Source: Balneolaceae bacterium
GTDB lineage: Bacteria; Bacteroidota; Rhodothermia; Balneolales; Balneolaceae
Direction: 5' to 3'
Length of the DNA: 37,221 nt
Assembly: GCA_007134085.1 (NCBI GenBank)
Contig: SLLL01000209.1
Span: 1-37,221 of the forward strand
Shown in pieces: positions 10,724 to 26,569 of this stretch (position 1 is its first letter; each line of letters opens with the position of its first letter). The notes below the pieces were generated by a model. That model worked only from the letters and a program-made list of their open reading frames with translations, was not told where the DNA came from and did no database searches. Both the position numbers and the translations under genes were made by a program.

Positions 10724-11554
10724 ATGTCTTTAAAGAATTTCTATCATCATAAAACCATACTCATTACCGGAGCAGCGAGCGGAATAGGCAAACGTTTTGC
10801 CGAACGAATTTCTCAAGTTGCAGAAGTTACGCTGATTTTATGGGACAGAAATCCTGATGACCTTAAGCAGATTAAAGTGCAGCTTGCTGGTTCAGCAACA
10901 GTTTATACAGCAGGAATTGATGTAACCGATGCTCAGCGTGTTGAGTTTGAGGCGGATAAATTGATCAAACAGAATCTATTGCCAGATATCGTAATTAACT
11001 GTGCCGGAATAGTGATTGGTAAGTTTTTTCACGAACATTCTGTTTCTGATATCCAAAAAACAATGCAGATTAACACATTCGGCAGCATGTTGATTGCACG
11101 GGTTTTTCTGAATGAAATGCTGGACCGCAATTCAGGGATTGTTGTAAACCTTGGTTCTGCATCTGGTTATATCGGCAATCCCAGAATGAGTGTGTACGCC
11201 GCCAGTAAATGGGCTGTTCATGGATGGTCGGAATCATTAAACATTGAGTTGAAGCGTTTAGAGAGCAGTGTTAAAGTTATAACCGTTATTCCCAGCTATA
11301 TCAATACCGGTATGTTTGATGGAGTGAAGGCTCCACTTTTGGTACCTATTCTCGAAACAGACGATATTGTTGATAAAATGATATCCGGCATACACAAAGG
11401 AAAGCGCACAATTAAAGCCCCTTTTATGGTTCATTTTGTCCCGCTTTTAAAGGCTTTGCTTCCTGCTTCGGTTTTCGACTGGCTTGCCGGACGTGTTCTT
11501 GGGGTATATTCTTCAATGGATCAGTTTAAAGGACGAAAACCAAAATCATCATGA
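10724..11554 (+). CDS. Short-chain dehydrogenase/reductase (SDR)
   Basis: NAD(P)-dependent oxidoreductase of 276 residues with the classical SDR set: cofactor motif TGAASGIG (15-22), NCAG (92-95), Ser145 in NLGSASGYIG, and the catalytic Tyr158 and Lys162 in YAASK. After the active site, VITVIPSYINTGMFDGV and a hydrophobic C-terminus (VPLLKALLPASVFDWLAGRVLG) resemble the retinol/long-chain alcohol dehydrogenase branch, which associates with membranes. Its stop overlaps the next gene's start by four bases (ATGA), indicating translational coupling to the aldehyde dehydrogenase. A lipophilic alcohol oxidised here and passed on as aldehyde is a reasonable inference; the actual substrate is unknown. 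Confidence 0.92.
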   Translation: MSLKNFYHHKTILITGAASGIGKRFAERISQVAEVTLILWDRNPDDLKQIKVQLAGSATVYTAGIDVTDAQRVEFEADKLIKQNLLPDIVINCAGIVIGKFFHEHSVSDIQKTMQINTFGSMLIARVFLNEMLDRNSGIVVNLGSASGYIGNPRMSVYAASKWAVHGWSESLNIELKRLESSVKVITVIPSYINTGMFDGVKAPLLVPILETDDIVDKMISGIHKGKRTIKAPFMVHFVPLLKALLPASVFDWLAGRVLGVYSSMDQFKGRKPKSS

Positions 11555-12921
11555 GTATTGAGAGTATTGTATCACAACAAAAAGCTGCTTTTAGAGATGG
11601 GCGAACACGCTCCATAAAGGCAAGAAAGAGCATGCTAAAACAGCTTAGAAAGCTAATCTCCACACATGAAAAAGAGTTATGTGATGCTATAAAACAAGAT
11701 TTCGGCAAGCCCTATATCGAATCATATGTTACTGAAATTTATACTCTTCTTGATGAAATAGATTACCATCTTAAAAATCTTTACGGCTGGATGAAGCCTG
11801 AATCAGTTGGCGGCCCAATCGTAACTTTTCCATCAAAGAATGTGATCTACAAACAGCCAAAAGGTACGGTTCTTATTATTGGTGCCTGGAATTATCCGGT
11901 TAATCTCACACTTATGCCGTTGATCGGTGCTATATCTGCCGGTAACACAGCTATTTTAAAGCCTTCTGAACTGGCGCCGGCAACATCAACAAAATTGAAA
12001 GAGCTTTTTGAACGTTATTTTAAACCCGATGTGATATCAGTGATAGAGGGTGGAGTTGATGTCACCACGGAGCTCTTATCCCAATCGTTTGATCATATCT
12101 TTTTTACCGGCAGTACGCGTGTTGGGAAAATCGTGATGAAAGCTGCTGCTGAAAACCTAACACCTGTCACTCTTGAGCTTGGTGGTAAAAGCCCTGCAAT
12201 CGTTTTTGAAGATGCCAACATTGATGTTGCCGCTAATAGAATATGGTGGGGAAAAACCATCAATGGCGGACAAACCTGTGTAGCTCCGGATTTTGTTTTG
12301 ATACACTCCTCTAAAAAAGAGGCGTTTATTGAAGCCTCGAAGAAGGCTATCTCCTCTTTTTTCAAAAATGATTACCGAATAGGTGAGAATTATACAGCAA
12401 TCATAAACCATGTTCACTTCGACAGGCTTATTGATTTACTTAAGCAAAGTAATGTGATTTTTGGCGGCGATACAAACAGAGACACACGTTTTATCGAACC
12501 CACAATTATCGATGCTGAATGGGATGATGAGATCATGAAGGATGAAATTTTTGGCCCGCTTCTGCCTGTAATTACATACGATGATGATAAAGAAATTCCT
12601 TTACAGTTAAACAAAAAACCTGCACCATTGGCACTTTATATATTTACAGAAAGTAAAGAGAAACAGGAGTTTATTATTCAACATGTGCCTTTTGGCGGAG
12701 GGTGTGTGAATGATACAATAAGCCATTTGGGCAACCCTAATTTACCATTTGGTGGAGTTGGTTTTAGCGGAATGGGATCGTATCACGGAAAGTATAGTTT
12801 TGATACATTCAGCAGAGAACAAGGTGTTTTGAAAAAGCCATCCTGGCCCGACCCCGATGTTCGCTATCCACCCTATAATGATTTGACGCTGAGCGTTTTC
12901 AAGCGTTTGTTTTCTAAATAA
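11551..12921 (+). CDS. Aldehyde dehydrogenase, class 3 / fatty-aldehyde type
   Basis: Oxidises an aldehyde to the carboxylic acid with NAD(P). At 456 residues it has the shorter N-terminus of the ALDH3 family rather than the ~490-500 residues of other classes. Active-site residues are all visible: Asn114 in GAWNYPVNLTLMPL, FTGSTRVGKIVMKAAA, Glu209 in TLELGGKSPAIVFEDANID, catalytic Cys243 in NGGQTCVAPDFVL, and EIFGPLLPV. The C-terminus (PFGGVGFSGMGSYHGKYSFDTFS, then a hydrophobic tail) also matches ALDH3. It begins within the last codons of the SDR gene and is followed after 12 bases by the YhdH/AcuI gene, so all act in one pathway, probably turning medium- or long-chain alcohols and aldehydes into acids. 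Confidence 0.96.
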   Translation: MSIESIVSQQKAAFRDGRTRSIKARKSMLKQLRKLISTHEKELCDAIKQDFGKPYIESYVTEIYTLLDEIDYHLKNLYGWMKPESVGGPIVTFPSKNVIYKQPKGTVLIIGAWNYPVNLTLMPLIGAISAGNTAILKPSELAPATSTKLKELFERYFKPDVISVIEGGVDVTTELLSQSFDHIFFTGSTRVGKIVMKAAAENLTPVTLELGGKSPAIVFEDANIDVAANRIWWGKTINGGQTCVAPDFVLIHSSKKEAFIEASKKAISSFFKNDYRIGENYTAIINHVHFDRLIDLLKQSNVIFGGDTNRDTRFIEPTIIDAEWDDEIMKDEIFGPLLPVITYDDDKEIPLQLNKKPAPLALYIFTESKEKQEFIIQHVPFGGGCVNDTISHLGNPNLPFGGVGFSGMGSYHGKYSFDTFSREQGVLKKPSWPDPDVRYPPYNDLTLSVFKRLFSK

Positions 12922-12933
12922 TCCCTTTTTTAT

Positions 12934-13929
12934 ATGGCTGATGAAAGCTATGAAGCTATTGTAGCAGAACAGGTTGGAGAGAAGTTTACTCAATCGGTTA
13001 AAGAGTGTCTTCTGTCTGATTTGCCGGATAATGACGTGTTGATTCGGGTTCACTATTCATCCCTGAATTATAAAGACGCCCTCTCCGCTACCGGGCATAA
13101 GGGCATCACAAAATTTTACCCATTCACTCCGGGCATTGATGCAGCCGGTATTGTGGCAATCAGCAATTCGGCTCTCTTTTCCGAAGGTGATGAAGTTATT
13201 GTAACCAGTTACGATCTGGGAATGAACACACCGGGTGGGTTCGGGCAGTATATTTCTGTACCGGCTGATTGGATAGTTCCTTTGCCCAAAAATCTTTCCC
13301 TAAAAGAGAGTATGACGATTGGTACATCAGGACTTACAGCGGCAATTGGAATCGATAAATTAACCAGACATTCATTTAACCAGGATAGTCCCGAAGCTCT
13401 TGTTACAGGGGCTACCGGTGGCGTTGGGTCTTTTGCTGTTGCATTGCTTGCTCATCTGAATTACCGCGTTGTTGCGGCTACCGGAAAAATGGATCAGGCT
13501 GATTTTTTAACCTCATTAGGTGCGGGTACAGTCATTCACAGAGATGATGTTCTAAATGTGCCCGAAAATCCGCTCCTTTCATCCCGGTGGCCAGCCGCAA
13601 TAGATACTGTTGGCGGTAAAATACTCGATTCTATTCTTCGGCAGGTTTCTCATAACGGATTCGTTGCTTGTTGCGGCAACGTTTTGGGCAATCAGCTTGA
13701 TACTTCCATTCTTCCTTTTATTTTGCGCGGCATTACCCTGGCTGGTATAGATTCCGGCATTGCAAGAATGGAGCTTAGAAAAACCATTTGGAATAAGCTT
13801 GCTGATGAATGGAAACCGGCTGCACTTCACAAACTTGCAAGGGAAGTAAAGCTCCATGATCTGCCAAAAGAAATTGAAGCCATTCTTAATGGAAAGCAGA
13901 TTGGGAAAGTATTAGTTAACCTTTTATAA
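12934..13929 (+). CDS. YhdH/AcuI-family NADPH quinone/acryloyl-CoA reductase
   Basis: Zinc-free medium-chain dehydrogenase/reductase of 331 residues. Typical family features are SSLNYKDALSATGHKG near the N-terminus, PGIDAAGIV, the linker YDLGMNTPGGFGQYISVP, and the nucleotide-binding GATGGVGSFAVALLA (159-173). The relative AcuI reduces toxic acryloyl-CoA to propionyl-CoA; other members act on quinones or enones. It ends the four-gene run, and a hairpin with seven Ts follows the stop. In this context removal of a reactive alpha,beta-unsaturated product is plausible, but which one cannot be read from sequence. Confidence 0.9.
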   Translation: MADESYEAIVAEQVGEKFTQSVKECLLSDLPDNDVLIRVHYSSLNYKDALSATGHKGITKFYPFTPGIDAAGIVAISNSALFSEGDEVIVTSYDLGMNTPGGFGQYISVPADWIVPLPKNLSLKESMTIGTSGLTAAIGIDKLTRHSFNQDSPEALVTGATGGVGSFAVALLAHLNYRVVAATGKMDQADFLTSLGAGTVIHRDDVLNVPENPLLSSRWPAAIDTVGGKILDSILRQVSHNGFVACCGNVLGNQLDTSILPFILRGITLAGIDSGIARMELRKTIWNKLADEWKPAALHKLAREVKLHDLPKEIEAILNGKQIGKVLVNLL

Positions 13930-15668: not shown

Positions 15669-16316
15669 TTATGGCTCCAGAACTACAATCGCCTTACCTT
15701 CATAGAATGGTTCACCTTTACCAAAATCAAACTCGTATATAGTAGCGTTCACTTTTCTTCTTGTTTGATGTAGTTCCTGCTCAGCATCTTTTGCGCCTTT
15801 CCACATAATGATCTCTTCCCAACTCTTTTTATCGAGAAGGCGCAGGAGGCCATCAATCTTGAATGCATGCTTCGTTACAATTCCCGTTCCTCTTTTAAGG
15901 TCAACAAGCGAAATGCTTTTTGCGGCAATATCTGCATTTTTCAATCCAAGCTTTTGAATGATATCATCCACAGCCCGCATTTTTTTCTTCACATTGTCGT
16001 TTATAGTCCAGTTAAAACCACCCTTACAAATTGCCAAAGGCACACCGGGAAGGCCACCGCCCGACCCTGCATCTACCCAGTTTTTGCATCCGTTTAGAAG
16101 GTGCAGTGCTTCGGGAATCAATGAATGAACCACATGCGCCCTCACTGTTTCACGTGAAACAGTGCGGCTGACGAGATTGATTTTTTCGTTCCATTCGAGC
16201 AGATAGTCAAGATACTCTTCAAGCCGGGTTTCATTTCCACGATACAGTTCTCTAGCTGATTGTAAAACTTCGTAGCCGATTCGCTTCTTGACAATTTGTT
16301 GTTTCACGTGAAACAC
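15669..16316 (-). CDS. rsmG: 16S rRNA (guanine-527 N7)-methyltransferase RsmG
   Basis: Methylates N7 of G527 in the 530 loop of 16S rRNA with S-adenosylmethionine. At 215 residues it matches the family: LEEYLDYLLEWNEKINLVSRTVSRE, then the SAM-binding WVDAGSGGGLPGVPLAI, and IVTKHAFKIDGLLRLL. The start codon is GTG (16316), directly after the mnmG TAG with no base between, so translation is coupled. The first codons (read as MFHVKQ) lie in a parS site, and a second parS site occupies codons in the VSRET segment. The mnmG-rsmG pairing is widespread near bacterial chromosome origins. No defects were seen. Confidence 0.96.
   Translation of the reverse strand: MFHVKQQIVKKRIGYEVLQSARELYRGNETRLEEYLDYLLEWNEKINLVSRTVSRETVRAHVVHSLIPEALHLLNGCKNWVDAGSGGGLPGVPLAICKGGFNWTINDNVKKKMRAVDDIIQKLGLKNADIAAKSISLVDLKRGTGIVTKHAFKIDGLLRLLDKKSWEEIIMWKGAKDAEQELHQTRRKVNATIYEFDFGKGEPFYEGKAIVVLEP
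16143..16164. other. parS: parS centromere site within rsmG
   Basis: The core TGTTTCACGTGAAACA at 16146-16161 is identical to the bacterial parS consensus bound by ParB, and the palindrome extends to 22 bases (16143-16164). It lies inside the rsmG coding region, encoding VSRET on the minus strand. ParB loading here would organise and segregate the chromosome. Confidence 0.9.
16300..16315. other. parS: parS centromere site over the rsmG start
   Basis: A second perfect TGTTTCACGTGAAACA, 154 bases from the first and one base short of the first base of the rsmG GTG start. Two exact 16-base matches so close together cannot be chance. ParB bound here would sit across the mnmG/rsmG junction and might affect rsmG expression. 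Confidence 0.9.
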
Positions 16317-18206
16317 CTACCCTTTTAAATAGACCATGAGAACGGCAACATCGCTCGCAGACACACCGCTGATTCTTGATGCCTGGCCAATTGTTTCGGG
16401 CTTAATCTTCTCCAGCTTGCTTTTCCCTTCGTTAGAAAGGCTTTTTATCTTCTCATAATCTAGCTTTTCCGGGATCCTGGTATTCTCCTGACGGCTAAGC
16501 TCCTGAACCATTTCAAACTCTCTTTGGATATAGCCATCATACTTTACCTGAATTTCTACCTGCTCAATTACATCTCTGCTTTCAGTAATTTCGGCTACTT
16601 TTGCATTTAGTTCTTCATCAGCATCAAGCAAATCCTGAAGATGAATTTCAGGACGCGGTATCAGCGATTTTGCTTTTACCGGCTGGCTCAATACAGACGT
16701 GCCTTTTTCAAGAAGCATGGAATCCATCTTCTCAGGGCGAACAGTGTAATCACTTATAAGATCATAAAGACGGTCAATTTCACTTTTTTTCTTTAGATAT
16801 CTGTTATACCGTTGATCATCTGCCAGGCCTATTTTCTTACCAAGCTCCGTAAGCCTAAGGTCTGCATTATCCTGCCGCAATAAAATTCGGTGCTCAGCCC
16901 TTGATGTAAACATTCGGTAAGGTTCTTCGGTGCCTTTATTTATAAGGTCATCAATCAGCACGCCTATGTACGCCTCCGAACGTTTCAGAATAAATGGCTC
17001 TTTCTTTTGAACGTGAAGGGCGGAGTTAATGCCCGCCATCAATCCCTGACAGGCTGCCTCTTCATATCCGGTAGTACCGTTTATTTGTCCGGCAAAAAAT
17101 AGTCCGCTTACAAGCTTTGTTTCAAGGCTTCGCTTTATTTGGTATGGCGGGAAATAATCATACTCAATTGCATAACCGGGGCGTAACATCACAGCATCTT
17201 CAAAACCGGGTATGGTTCGCAATGCATGGTATTGTACATCCTCGGGGAGTGAAGTGCTGAAACCGTTCAAATACATCTCATAGGTATTCCACCCCTCCGG
17301 CTCAAGGAAAAGCTGGTGCCTGTCCCTGTCTGCAAAACGGTTGATCTTATCCTCAATACTCGGGCAATATCTTGGCCCGATGGACTTAATGCGCCCATTA
17401 AACATAGGGCTGCGGTCAAAACCGGTTTTAAGCAGTTCGTGAACGTCGTTATTGGTGTACCCAATCCAACAGGTAAGCTGAGCTTCCACAGACGGCAGCT
17501 CATCTGTCATAAATGAAAATGGTGAAGGATCTTCATCGCCGTACTGAATCTCAAGCTTAGAATAATCGATGGAGCGCCCGTCAATCCTGGGTGGGGTTCC
17601 GGTTTTTAGCCTTCCAATTTCAAAACCAAGCTTTTCAAGCGAAGCGGAAATCCCGACAGAAGCTCTTTCACCAGACCTGCCCCCACCATACTGGCTTTCA
17701 CCGATGTGAATAATCCCGTTTAAAAATGTACCGCTTGTTAAAACAACTGAATCAGAGCTAAACTTCTGCCCGGTTTGTGTAACCACGCCGGTTACACGTG
17801 TGCCATTTTCACTGGTGAGAATATCTACCACATTATCCTGCCTGAAGTGGAGATTGGGAACCTTTTCAAGTTCTTCCCTCATAATCTGGGCATAAAGAAC
17901 CCTATCACTCTGGCAACGTGGGCTCCACATAGCCGGCCCCTTACTTCGGTTCAGCATTCTGAATTGCACGCCACTCTTATCACTCACAATACCACTCAAA
18001 CCACCCAATGCATCAATTTCCCGAACAAGCTGGCCTTTTGCCACGCCACCCATAGCTGGATTGCACGACATCTTTGCAATGGCATCCATATTCATTGTAA
18101 TGAGAAGAGTTTTAGCTCCCAGCTTAGCTGCTGCACCGGCTGCTTCGCTGCCGGCGTGCCCTGCTCCTACAACAATCACATCATAAGCAGGATATATACT
18201 ATTCAT
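16317..18206 (-). CDS. mnmG: tRNA uridine-5-carboxymethylaminomethyl synthesis enzyme MnmG (GidA)
   Basis: FAD-dependent partner of the GTPase MnmE; together they add the carboxymethylaminomethyl group to U34 of tRNAs reading NNA/NNG codons. The 629-residue protein has the dinucleotide motif [12 protein letters not shown] (12-23), then [23 protein letters not shown], the [11 protein letters not shown] stretch, [29 protein letters not shown] and the [20 protein letters not shown] region, plus the helical C-terminal MnmE-binding domain. Length equals the family norm. Its stop abuts the rsmG start. The 155-base space to the divergent R2lox gene should contain its promoter. Confidence 0.98.
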
Positions 18207-18361: not shown

Positions 18362-19687
18362 ATGTGGTTTACAAAGAAAAAAGAGGCCCGCTCTAAAAAG
18401 TATTTTTCGGATGAGTGGGTTCGTGAATGGAAAGGTGCACTGGAAAAGAGCGAACACTATAAAGTTAAAGGCAAAGATTGGAATGCTTCGGTATTGCTGA
18501 GAATGGAGCCGCCATCAACTGCATTAAAAAAAGCTGAATCAATCGGTTTCTATTTAGACTTACAGTACGGAGAATGCCATGATTTACGATATGCAAAAAA
18601 AGCGGATAAAGATCTTGCGGAGGTAATTCTTAAAGCTGATGAAGCTACATGGCTTAAATTAATTGAGCAGAAAAAAGATCCTGCCATGATGATTCTAAAG
18701 GGTTCTTTGAAATTGGAGAAAGGTAGCCTTGTGATGTTAACCAATCAAAAAGAGGCAGCAAAAGCTTTATTACAAACGGCACCTTCTTATGGAAAAGAGG
18801 AACTTGATGAAGAGTATATTTCTGAAACTGTGGATAAAATACCGGCCAGGAAAGAGCACACTTCTTTCAATACCACAAAGAGGGGCCTCAATTTTGAAAG
18901 CTTCCCTATGAAACTGTTCCAAAAGGCAAAGCAGTTTGGAATTTGGGATCCATCTGCAATAAACTTTGAAAAAGACAGGGAAGACTGGAAAAAACTATCA
19001 GAAGAAGAAAAAACCATCATCATACATTTATCTTCTCTATTTATGGCCGGTGAAGAAGCTGTTACACTCGACCTCCTTCCCCTAATCCAAACTATATCAA
19101 AAGAGGGGCGCCTTGAAGAGGAGATTTTTCTCACATCGTTTTTATGGGAGGAGGCAAAACATACAGAGTTTTTTTCGCGGTTCGTAAACGAAGTTTTTGT
19201 TGAACGTCCCGATTTTGAACATTTTCATAAGCCATTCTACAAAAAACTTTTTTACAGACAGCTACCCGAAGATCTGAACAGGCTCTATACAGATAGCTCA
19301 CCAATGGCACAGCTTAAAGCATCAGGTACCTATAACATGATAGTTGAAGGCACCCTTGCAGAAACCGGCTATGAAGCCTACCACAAAATGTTAAAGGAGA
19401 ATGACTTACTTCACGGTTTACAGGATGGAATTATCAAGCTAAAGCAGGATGAATCACGGCACATTGCATACGGGCTCTATCTGATAAACCGGTTGCTTGA
19501 TGATAACCCGGATTGCAAGGAGCCTTTCGAAAAACATCTTGAAGAATTGCTGGATGATGCAACCAATGTTATCCACGAAATTTTTGAACCGTATGATGTT
19601 GTGCCCTTTGGCCTGGAAAAAGAGTGGTTCCTTAATTATGCCATTAAACAATTTCAGCAAAGAATTGATAAACTTGGTATATACTAA
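18362..19687 (+). CDS. Fusion protein: SCP2-like lipid-binding domain and R2-like ligand-binding Mn/Fe oxidase (R2lox)
   Basis: The C-terminal half (about 165-435) is an R2lox, a ferritin-like dimetal oxidase related to ribonucleotide reductase R2. All six metal ligands are present: Glu231, Glu264 and His267 (EEAKH), Glu329, Glu364 and His367 (DESRH). Their spacing equals that recalled for the Geobacillus enzyme plus 162. Val234 and Tyr324 occupy the positions that form the autocatalytic Val-Tyr ether crosslink. R2lox enzymes bind a long-chain fatty acid at a Mn/Fe centre and activate oxygen. The first ~140 residues look like a sterol-carrier-protein-2 fold (SIGFYLDLQYGECHDLRYA, WLKLIEQKKDPAMMILKGSLKLEKGS). 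A lipid-binding module joined to a lipid-binding oxidase suggests substrate delivery. The gene appears monocistronic. The R2lox part is sure; the SCP2 assignment is by pattern only. Confidence 0.85.
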   Translation: MWFTKKKEARSKKYFSDEWVREWKGALEKSEHYKVKGKDWNASVLLRMEPPSTALKKAESIGFYLDLQYGECHDLRYAKKADKDLAEVILKADEATWLKLIEQKKDPAMMILKGSLKLEKGSLVMLTNQKEAAKALLQTAPSYGKEELDEEYISETVDKIPARKEHTSFNTTKRGLNFESFPMKLFQKAKQFGIWDPSAINFEKDREDWKKLSEEEKTIIIHLSSLFMAGEEAVTLDLLPLIQTISKEGRLEEEIFLTSFLWEEAKHTEFFSRFVNEVFVERPDFEHFHKPFYKKLFYRQLPEDLNRLYTDSSPMAQLKASGTYNMIVEGTLAETGYEAYHKMLKENDLLHGLQDGIIKLKQDESRHIAYGLYLINRLLDDNPDCKEPFEKHLEELLDDATNVIHEIFEPYDVVPFGLEKEWFLNYAIKQFQQRIDKLGIY

Positions 19688-23701: not shown

Positions 23702-26539
23702 TTACTCTAACACCTCCATAACGCCCCGCATCAGTTCACCATGTCCGGGAAATGTGCAAATAAACTGATACCTGCCCGGAGTGGATGGAGCCGTAAATTC
23801 AAGGAGTTCACTTTCATTATGCCTAAGCAGACGGCTGGCAATCAAAATATCGGGGCTATCAGGTACAAATTGAAGCTCAAAACCCAGCCCGCCAAGGTCA
23901 ATGGCCATTTGGTAAACTTCATCAGCCTTTCCCGGTTCGGTAAACAGGATATTATGCGGCATAAAATCGGGATTATCAAATGTGAGGCGAACGGGCTGAT
24001 TGCTGCGAACGGTGAAACGTGCCACATCAAACCGCATCTGTTCTATAATGGCTCTGATTGTAAACTCCGCAATATCCTCATCGGAAAAATCGAGCTCCAT
24101 CCCGGCGCGGTCAAACGAATCGGCCAGTGGAATATCGGGGTCTGAATAATGGTGGGGCGAAATCAAAGCGGGGTCGCGTTCACTCCAAAACCACTCTACC
24201 TGTTCTGCAGCAATGCGCACATTCTCCTCCGGCGAATTGAGCAGATGATACAACAGTTCATGATTTTGCACATTATGCTGCTGATGAACCCAAAGCGCCT
24301 CAAGCAGGGGATGCGCATCATCAATATTATGTGGATCAAACTGATCAGCCCATTCCTGAACGGCTGAAATCACATCACCTGTATTTCTACCGCTCAGCTC
24401 TACCCGGACTCTGTGGCGAATGCTGTTATCGGGATGGTTTAGTAGCTCTAGTAAATTATCAATCGGCTCATTATAAATAGGAATTGGTTCGAGCAGCGGA
24501 CGATCTTCAGCCGTGACTCTGAAAATCCGGCCATGTGTATGATCTCTCATCGGGTCGCGAAGATTGTGCTGCATATGGCCAATGATGGCGTTGTGCCAGT
24601 CGCTAATGTAAAGCGCACCATCATTACCAACAACACCGTGAGTTGGCCTGAAGTTGGGATCTGTTGAATAGAAAAGGTCCGGCAGCTCTTCACCCCAAAC
24701 CATACCATCGTTGTAGGTCAAATCATATCGCTTTGCACCGAGGAACCCAATCACATTATAGATCAGAAAATTGTCTCTGAACTCTTCTGGAAAATGGCTT
24801 GTGGAAAGCACCTGATTCCCGGGAACGGGGCGCACCGTATGATCGAGCAGCGGACGTTTTTCGAAACGCCCTCCATCAAGATAAACCTGATGAGCCGTAC
24901 CCATAGTACCGTCTGTGATGAACAGGTTTCCCCACTTATCAAAACTGATGCCGTGCGGGTTGTAGATGTTTTCCACCACAAAATCGAACTCGAAGGTGCG
25001 GGGGTTGAAGCGATAGAGCCCCGAAACATCCGACTCCATATTTTTCCGCCACGGAGATTCTACATTGTTGAGATGAAACACCCCGCGCTGGTAATAGATC
25101 CAGCCATCAGGCCCGTAGATTACATTGTTTGCGGTGTGATGGGTATCTGCCGAATCGATAGCGCCCATCAGGCGGATGATAACATCGGCTTTATCATCTC
25201 CCGTGGTATCTTTCAGGAAAAGGATATCCGGCGCTGATACCACAATCACCCCGCCGTTCCAGAATTCGAAACCGGTAGGATTGTGGATCTTCGCAAACGT
25301 GGTGGACTTGTCTGCAACGCCATCTCCCGTGGTATCTTCGAGAATCAGCAGCCGGTCGCTCATCTCTTTCATTGGCTCCCATTTTGGATAGGTTGACCAT
25401 GCTGCAACCCAAATCCTGCCTTTGGCATCAACCTGCATCTGAACGGGATTTACCAGTTCAGGGAACATCTCTTCTGAAGCGAACAGATTGGCCTGCAATC
25501 CATCAGCGAGGGTAAGTTTTTGCAACGATTCTTCACCGCTGAGATAGGTTGCATCACCGGTAAAATTGGTTTCAACCGGAGTGGGTGGAGGTACGTTGCT
25601 GTCATCAACAGTTTTTTCATTTCCTCGAGCTTTTACCCAGATAACTTGGTCGCGATTGGCGGTCATCACATCGAGCATTATAAGTTCATGTTGCAAGGTT
25701 TCGTAGTTGCCGTGAAGTTCGGCCCGCCCGCCCCAAACATCATTACCGCTGGTGGCACGGTATCGGTTAAACCAGTGCCAGTTTTTATTAAGTACAGCTT
25801 CGCGGATGCTGGCAATTCTGTTGCCACGCATCCGGGGTAAACCACCAAAAAGATCCTCCACAATAATCTGCGAAATTTGTCGGTTTCCCTCCGCTGAGAG
25901 ATGCACGCCATTAATGGTTAACGGTTCACGGGCTTGCATGTACAAACGTTGCGAGGCGTGGAAGAGGTCAACGAACGGGATATCATAATTATCTGACACC
26001 TCCTGCATTACATTCGTGATAGCTAGCAGGCGCTGATTATTCTCTATGCCATCAGGCAGGTTTGGATCGTTCAGGTTCTCATGGGCAATTGGGGAGAAGA
26101 GCACTATTTTTGGTTCGGTTTCACCATTGTAGCTCTGACTGCGGGTATGCTCAATCCAGGCGATGAGGTGTGCGCGGAACTCTTCAGGCCTGTCATCAAA
26201 AGATTCGTTGTAGCCAAACATGGCAAATATCACATCAGCCTCAACTCGGGTAAGGTGAGAATCGCTGTCGCCAAAATTTTCGTGTGCCCTTGGACGATGG
26301 TGGATCTGATCACCCGTAAAACCAAGATTTCGAATCACAAGATTGTGTTCGGGGTGAGCTGCGTGGATGTAGGTTTCAAGCCAACCGTCGTGCTGCATTC
26401 TATCAGCCAGCGAGTTGCCAATGATAGCGATGGAGTCACCTTCTTGGAGCTCAATTTTTTTCTCAGGTGTGCATCCTGTAGTCCAGAGAATTATCAGAAA
26501 AAGAATTACAGCAGAGAAAGTGAAGCGGGAATAGATCAT
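23702..26539 (-). CDS. Lipoprotein fusion: SGNH hydrolase, soluble-dehydrogenase-like propeller and azurin-like cupredoxin
   Basis: A 945-residue lipoprotein; start chosen at 26539 (MIYSRFTFSAVILFL...TTGC, Cys23), though the frame opens ten codons earlier. An SGNH/GDSL esterase-like domain follows (IAIIGNSLADRM, Ser43; later NGVHLSAEGN, with Asn where Asp is usual before the His). From about 335 a membrane-bound-dehydrogenase-type beta-propeller appears (LFASEEMFPELVNPVQMQVD, VAAWSTYPKWEP, RLLILEDTTGDGVADK, YNPHGISFDKWGNLFITDG, ALYISDWHNAIIGHMQHN), then a HEAT-like helical stretch. The C-terminus is a cupredoxin: His862, Cys928, His933, Met937, with exactly azurin's H-C-H-M spacing. No CxxCH haem motif exists. 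An extracytoplasmic sugar oxidase/esterase passing electrons to copper is inferred; the substrate is unknown. Confidence 0.85.
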   Translation of the reverse strand: MIYSRFTFSAVILFLIILWTTGCTPEKKIELQEGDSIAIIGNSLADRMQHDGWLETYIHAAHPEHNLVIRNLGFTGDQIHHRPRAHENFGDSDSHLTRVEADVIFAMFGYNESFDDRPEEFRAHLIAWIEHTRSQSYNGETEPKIVLFSPIAHENLNDPNLPDGIENNQRLLAITNVMQEVSDNYDIPFVDLFHASQRLYMQAREPLTINGVHLSAEGNRQISQIIVEDLFGGLPRMRGNRIASIREAVLNKNWHWFNRYRATSGNDVWGGRAELHGNYETLQHELIMLDVMTANRDQVIWVKARGNEKTVDDSNVPPPTPVETNFTGDATYLSGEESLQKLTLADGLQANLFASEEMFPELVNPVQMQVDAKGRIWVAAWSTYPKWEPMKEMSDRLLILEDTTGDGVADKSTTFAKIHNPTGFEFWNGGVIVVSAPDILFLKDTTGDDKADVIIRLMGAIDSADTHHTANNVIYGPDGWIYYQRGVFHLNNVESPWRKNMESDVSGLYRFNPRTFEFDFVVENIYNPHGISFDKWGNLFITDGTMGTAHQVYLDGGRFEKRPLLDHTVRPVPGNQVLSTSHFPEEFRDNFLIYNVIGFLGAKRYDLTYNDGMVWGEELPDLFYSTDPNFRPTHGVVGNDGALYISDWHNAIIGHMQHNLRDPMRDHTHGRIFRVTAEDRPLLEPIPIYNEPIDNLLELLNHPDNSIRHRVRVELSGRNTGDVISAVQEWADQFDPHNIDDAHPLLEALWVHQQHNVQNHELLYHLLNSPEENVRIAAEQVEWFWSERDPALISPHHYSDPDIPLADSFDRAGMELDFSDEDIAEFTIRAIIEQMRFDVARFTVRSNQPVRLTFDNPDFMPHNILFTEPGKADEVYQMAIDLGGLGFELQFVPDSPDILIASRLLRHNESELLEFTAPSTPGRYQFICTFPGHGELMRGVMEVLE

Positions 26540-26569
26540 GGTAAACAAAAAAGGTGGATTGGGTTGCAT

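Follow-up and report, generated by a model that had tools for sequence, protein, structure and literature searches.

The window analysed here, the whole 37,221-nucleotide stretch of contig SLLL01000209.1 from a Balneolaceae bacterium (GenBank assembly GCA_007134085.1), contains a gene that joins an SCP2 (sterol carrier protein 2) lipid-carrier domain to the manganese/iron oxidase R2lox. Relatives in several phyla have the two parts fused or as adjacent genes, sometimes close to enzymes that oxidise alcohols and aldehydes, and this points to hydrophobic molecules, held by the carrier, as what the oxidase acts on. The gene is laid out as follows.

18362..19687, + strand: SCP2-R2lox fusion gene, 441 amino acid residues
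18395..18790, + strand: SCP2 lipid-carrier domain, residues 12-143
18791..18853, + strand: linker, residues 144-164
18854..19675, + strand: R2lox oxidase domain, residues 165-438
19052..19462, + strand: span of the dimetal ligands, the crosslink pair and Ala333, inside the R2lox domain

The fusion gene and its two domains

A preliminary description of the window had proposed both domain identities, and the family profiles agree with it. The window protein scores 361 bits against the R2lox family NF006202 (curated cut-off 315) and 23.6-25.9 bits against the SCP2 family PF02036, a narrow margin above the gathering score of 21.3 that is backed by matches of the SCP2 part to the PDB entries 1wfr and 2cx7 (E ~1e-13). 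Because structure searches with the whole model listed only R2lox and R2 folds (residues 159-441), the N-terminal domain was folded and searched separately. It has the SCP2 fold that the description had expected, and the R2lox domain has the R2lox fold. The residues of the metal site had also been numbered correctly: the six dimetal ligands (E231, E264, H267, E329, E364, and H367; four Glu and two His) and the Val234/Tyr324 pair, which could form an ether crosslink, are identical in 96 of 96 sequences. So is Ala333, which corresponds to A171 of the fatty-acid tunnel in the Geobacillus protein. The roles of the ligand and crosslink residues are treated in PMC10867098.

The fusion is a real gene, and it is the sole match in its own genome (91% complete). 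Relative to the closest relative, the nonsynonymous (dN) and synonymous (dS) divergences are 0.082 and 0.98 for the SCP2 part and 0.033 and 1.08 for the R2lox part, which indicates purifying selection on both domains alike. The linker is the fastest-changing part of the protein, and its predicted local distance difference test score is below 50 at residues 145-158. Apparent three-domain proteins at L098 (669 residues), L112 (725 residues), and L099 (904 residues) were rejected; their upstream parts contain no Pfam domain, and the frames look spurious.

Distribution of fused, paired, and stand-alone genes

The same two-domain architecture was found well beyond the source genome. Among 58 genomes, 31 match and 24 of these have full-length fusions (the source genome is included in all three counts), one of them (G004) starting at a contig end. 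The other matches comprise a fusion in two same-frame pieces (G006), five genes cut by contig ends, and an SCP2-only piece close to a contig end (G048). In a scan of a genome collection, the best 80 of 542 loci comprised 52 fused genes (three cut by contig ends), 3 two-gene loci, and 25 stand-alone R2lox genes. As the ranking by match to the full-length query is biased toward fusions, these counts were dropped as a frequency estimate and phylum samples were used instead. The record titles of the fused loci among these 80 name Balneolaceae, Balneolales, Rhodothermales, Calditrichia, KSB1, Roseiflexaceae, Gemmatimonadetes, Acidobacteriota/Thermoanaerobaculia, and, once, Verrucomicrobia. A locus labelled Thermoflexus (L083) is near-identical to Roseiflexaceae rows in the tree and may be mis-binned; the phylum labels that depend on a single metagenome-assembled genome (MAG), Verrucomicrobiota (L126) and Bacillota (L117), are equally doubtful.

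Each phylum sample includes its own centre genome, picked from the same best 80 loci. Among 395 genomes of the window's phylum, 27 match; 24 have R2lox, as 19 fusions (one cut at a contig end), one adjacent pair (G124), and 4 stand-alone genes, and the remainder are two genomes with SCP2 alone and one with a weak R2-like match. Around the Gemmatimonadaceae MAG G434, 64 of 249 genomes match. Nine have a strong R2lox, fused in five (the centre included) and stand-alone in four, with a related SCP2 on another contig. Seven have a divergent R2lox-like gene, with SCP2 directly upstream in four, on another contig in one, and in two on the same strand, some 1.4 and 1.9 kb before the R2lox-like gene; in G1463 an amidohydrolase gene lies between the two. 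One further genome has an R2lox fragment only, and the others have SCP2 alone.

Around the Acidobacteriota genome G432, 17 of 247 genomes match. All three with a strong R2lox have it in a gene pair; two of these, G432 and G433, were known before sampling, G433 having come from the best 80 loci as well. SCP2 occurs alone in four genomes. Around the Bacillota MAG G431, 9 of 348 genomes match and six have R2lox: one (the centre) as an adjacent pair, four with a same-strand SCP2 that precedes R2lox by 1.3-1.7 kb, and one without SCP2; two others have SCP2 alone and one a distant R2-like gene. At least 121 of 301 genomes around the Chloroflexota MAG G430 match. How often SCP2 and R2lox are partnered thus differs between groups, from common to rare.

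SCP2 lies upstream as a separate gene in G124, L087, L092, L117, and G1104, and in the pairs looked at outside actinobacteria SCP2 comes first, matching the order in the fusion. The SCP2 gene of G124 stops 13 bases short of the first R2lox ATG and lies in a different frame. In L087, L092, and L117, both genes are in the same frame with a single stop between them and a start codon 9-45 bases later, so that loss of the stop would easily join them. The fusion might accordingly have arisen when adjacent genes were joined by chance, and mean nothing for function. How widely the architecture has spread largely refutes this explanation: the fusion is kept in several phyla at 40-89% identity to the window protein, both domains are under purifying selection, and a second SCP2 subfamily lies near another R2lox subfamily (see below). 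We regard a meaningless join as very improbable.

The divergent R2lox-like family shows the separate-gene arrangement in the four genomes of the Gemmatimonadota sample mentioned above. Five of its members were scanned and reach at best about 136-154 bits to NF006200/NF006202, below the cut-off. At L165, L166, L167, and L168 (also L169 and L170), an SCP2 gene lies directly upstream of or near such a gene. In L174 and L175, from the Acidobacteriota sample, no SCP2 was seen in the retrieved stretch; L175 is just over the NF006200 cut-off.

A quick tree of 91 rows requires at least four changes of the SCP2-linked state, with gain and loss indistinguishable. It includes one outgroup and leaves out L069 and L074 (R2lox piece <240 residues), and L162 and L163 were labelled 'operonADH' by spacing alone. 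As its branches are long, with the Geobacillus row paired with a second long one, the tree supports only the clustering of labels. Distances of SCP2 and R2lox are correlated (r 0.72; 0 of 2000 permutations) over the 63 pairs among the 91 listed loci with SCP2 >105 and R2lox >235 residues, a correlation that shared descent alone can yield. A tree of SCP2 (73 rows, few columns) gives no resolution on whether the R2lox-linked SCP2s form one clade.

Gene clusters around R2lox and SCP2

Some R2lox genes lie in clusters with dehydrogenases. In a Bacillota-type cluster, that of G804, the order is TetR regulator, SCP2, zinc alcohol dehydrogenase (ADH), R2lox, and aldehyde dehydrogenase (ALDH); it is identical in G843, and G757 and G932 resemble it by gene spacing only. 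G1017 has R2lox, ALDH, and Fe-ADH without SCP2 and resembles the Geobacillus cluster of PMC10867098, in which the R2loxI gene lies beside ADH and ALDH genes.

Actinobacterial plasmids carry another R2lox subfamily (by NCBIfam). Of 34 plasmid records matching the window protein, 9 are annotated as R2lox and the other 25 mostly as ribonucleotide reductase. The R2lox of Rhodococcus opacus matches 8 plasmid records (E 1e-30 or better), which are four near-identical pairs and so represent four loci; the ninth annotated R2lox is that of the Geobacillus plasmid pHTA426. All eight carry an SCP2 of another subfamily on the same strand, 0.24-9.8 kb away, and in Rhodococcus sp. 008 the two genes are separated by one for a transposase. 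Pfam assigns this SCP2 to PF02036 (R. opacus, 32.2 bits; R. oxybenzonivorans, 22.1 bits), and a profile built from the fused SCP2 fails to reach it. In R. opacus B4 the order is ADH, R2lox, FAD oxidoreductase, ferredoxin, ALDH, SCP2, fatty acid-CoA ligase, two ABC permeases, and an MCE protein. Plasmid pREL1 of R. erythropolis PR4 has SCP2, ligase, ADH, ALDH, ferredoxin, P450, and FAD-dependent oxidoreductase, and the identities between the two cassettes are 78% for ADH, 61% for the ligase, 59% for SCP2, and just 31% for ALDH. The best PDB match of the PR4 P450 is 5fyf (E 4.6e-204), titled merely cytochrome P450; as it also matches 8b2p, a 'P450 alkane hydroxylase' (E 1.7e-197), and 3rwl, CYP153A7 (E 3e-138), we call it CYP153-like. 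Among the 26 actinobacterial-SCP2 records without an R. opacus-type R2lox, five were looked at: in four of them the stretch also contains a P450, and one has no oxygenase label.

These cassettes bear on two other explanations. In the first, R2lox is not a monooxygenase but, for example, removes O2 or lipid peroxides, and SCP2 serves as a membrane tether or product sink. It is consistent with the statement in PMC6399176 that the physiological function of R2lox has not been identified, and no widely recurring neighbour of the fused genes resembles an electron donor. However, ferredoxin and FAD oxidoreductase genes adjoin R2lox in the three Rhodococcus records looked at, and the homologous PR4 cassette pairs its P450 with the same two kinds of partner. 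We consider this explanation improbable. In the second, the substrate is another membrane lipid (an isoprenoid quinone precursor, hopanoid, or carotenoid), whose tail a UbiJ-like SCP2 would hold for the oxygenase. Against it, those R2lox clusters that have context contain ADH and ALDH, joined in actinobacteria by CoA ligase, a degradation-type set, and R2lox crystals hold a fatty acid in a tunnel lined by A171 (PMC6399176). This possibility is unlikely, less so than the tether or sink.

SCP2 of the window's subfamily also occurs with other enzymes. In Chloroflexota it forms the C-terminal part of wax ester synthase/diacylglycerol acyltransferase proteins (L135:3592-5625, L136:2096-4144, L137:3090-5114, and L138:3282-5318), with patatin-like genes immediately before them (Pfam assignments for L135 and L136), and SCP2 genes lie beside aldehyde ferredoxin oxidoreductase genes at L141:5059-7302, L143:3324-5584, and L140, where the reading frame of SCP2 is ambiguous.

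The surroundings of the window gene itself include the following features.

16317..18206, - strand: mnmG/gidA, divergent neighbour (PF01134, PF13932)
15669..16316, - strand: rsmG/gidB (PF02527)
10724..13929, + strand: run of short-chain dehydrogenase, aldehyde dehydrogenase, and zinc alcohol dehydrogenase, 4-8 kb upstream of the fusion gene

Homologs of mnmG/gidA and rsmG/gidB lie at the corresponding place in 22 and 20 loci, respectively (the window counted), recurrently in Balneolales and relatives. The dehydrogenase run is separated from the fusion gene by three opposite-strand genes and, of the other loci, only the close relatives L051 and L075 have it at the corresponding place. Searches with eight queries, dehydrogenases and regulators (E <=1e-20), gave matches near the fused gene only in the window, L051, L075, L090, and L126; with matches confined to so few fused loci, the neighbours were dropped as a pathway clue for the window gene. 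Elsewhere in the window (23705-26569, - strand), a protein of 955 residues combines a GDSL lipase-like part, DUF7133, and a C-terminal cupredoxin-like domain.

Proposed function and comparison with known systems

We propose that the SCP2 domain would take a long hydrophobic molecule out of membranes or lipid pools and hand it to the hydrophobic tunnel of R2lox, or receive the product from the tunnel. With O2, the Mn/Fe (or Fe/Fe) centre would hydroxylate an unactivated alkyl chain. Alcohol and aldehyde dehydrogenases of the related clusters would oxidise the resulting alcohol further, CoA ligase would activate it, and electrons would come from ferredoxin and its reductase. SCP2 and R2lox likely belong to one and the same pathway for a hydrophobic substrate. 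That the window protein is a two-domain lipid-oxidising enzyme, in which SCP2 exchanges a hydrophobic molecule with R2lox and R2lox hydroxylates the alkyl chain, is somewhat less secure, and we favour it with reservation. The preliminary description had supposed a lipid handover from SCP2 to the oxidase; the two-gene pairs, the ADH/ALDH cluster, and the actinobacterial SCP2 clusters lend support to such a handover, which itself stays putative. Also in favour of the proposed function are the conservation of the fusion, the invariant alanine of the tunnel in which crystallised R2lox holds a fatty acid, the correlated SCP2 and R2lox distances (with the reservation on shared descent), the CYP153-like P450 of the homologous PR4 cassette, and the reported alkane degradation by Geobacillus R2loxI. 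An alkane or fatty-chain substrate is a weaker proposal than the shared pathway, and we put it forward with hesitation.

A broader generalisation is tentative, falling a little short of even: R2lox proteins of several subfamilies may be dimetal enzymes that hydroxylate alkyl chains supplied by a soluble lipid carrier, taking the place of a CYP153-type P450 in homologous hydrocarbon-oxidation cassettes, with SCP2 gained more than once (as a gene cluster in actinobacteria, as a gene pair and fusion elsewhere).

Several observations weigh against the proposed function. Confidence of the structural model is low in the linker. Among the matches listed around G430, R2lox is fused only in the centre genome and alone in at least 44 others (at least 280 bits), although weak SCP2 matches would fall outside that list, and the 10 divergent R2lox-like genomes around G432 list no SCP2. 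None of the 25 stand-alone loci among the best 80 has SCP2 in its flank (at least 5 kb on both sides in 20 of them); of 13 stand-alone R2lox genomes looked at, nine have a related SCP2 elsewhere and in four none was seen. The fused genes have no widely recurring metabolic neighbour. The actinobacterial SCP2 occurs in 34 records and the R. opacus-type R2lox in only 8 of those, so this SCP2 marks a lipid-oxidation cassette rather than R2lox. The R2lox of the Geobacillus plasmid pHTA426 (L188) has no SCP2 annotated within 9 kb, which slightly lowered our confidence, and a Halomarina R2lox-like gene (132 bits, below the cut-off), the one looked at among the 25 plasmid records without an R2lox annotation, has none annotated within 6 kb. 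The published alkane activity of Geobacillus R2loxI (PMC10867098, 2024) is contested; as presented there, it was obtained with crude lysates, and a ligand mutant showed only a slight loss. The preliminary description's statement that no physiological substrate is settled needs this claim of alkane hydroxylation as a qualifier. As to the surroundings of the pHTA426 gene, it adjoins an adenylate-forming enzyme, with a UbiD-family decarboxylase near and ALDH and Fe-ADH 5-8 kb off.

R2lox has many crystal structures, and its Mn/Fe cofactor has been studied, yet its role is disputed. The carrier fusion and the clusters with ferredoxin, reductase, ADH, and ALDH provide a concrete enzyme system to reconstitute and name test organisms (R. 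opacus B4 and Balneolaceae). If the proposal is true, Mn/Fe enzymes would stand firmly among alkyl-chain hydroxylases, with a soluble carrier serving one. We found no paper joining R2lox with a sterol carrier in open-licence PubMed Central, and none there on a ribonucleotide reductase-SCP2 fusion and alkane or on SCP-2 fused to wax ester synthase; absence from that collection is weak evidence.

The known systems nearest to the window protein compare with it as follows. The matched R2lox crystal chains, with Geobacillus kaustophilus R2loxI (PDB 4hr0) as an example of the family, span R2lox only, and the window protein is longer by 162 residues at its N terminus. The sterol carrier protein 2 of Thermus thermophilus, TT1886 (2cx7/1wfr; about 130-143 residues), is SCP2 alone, whereas the SCP2 of the window is fused to an oxidase. 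The alkylsulfatases SdsA1 and Pisa1 have an SCP2-like C-terminal domain; their catalytic domain is, in contrast, a hydrolase unrelated to R2lox. In UbiJ, an SCP2 accessory protein of ubiquinone synthesis, the fold is proposed to hold the lipid for partner enzymes (PMC9499169). The pREL1 cassette of R. erythropolis PR4 is homologous to the R. opacus B4 R2lox cluster in its ADH, CoA ligase, and SCP2, but its oxygenase is a P450 with a 2Fe-2S ferredoxin, whereas that of R. opacus B4 is R2lox with an FdxA-type ferredoxin.
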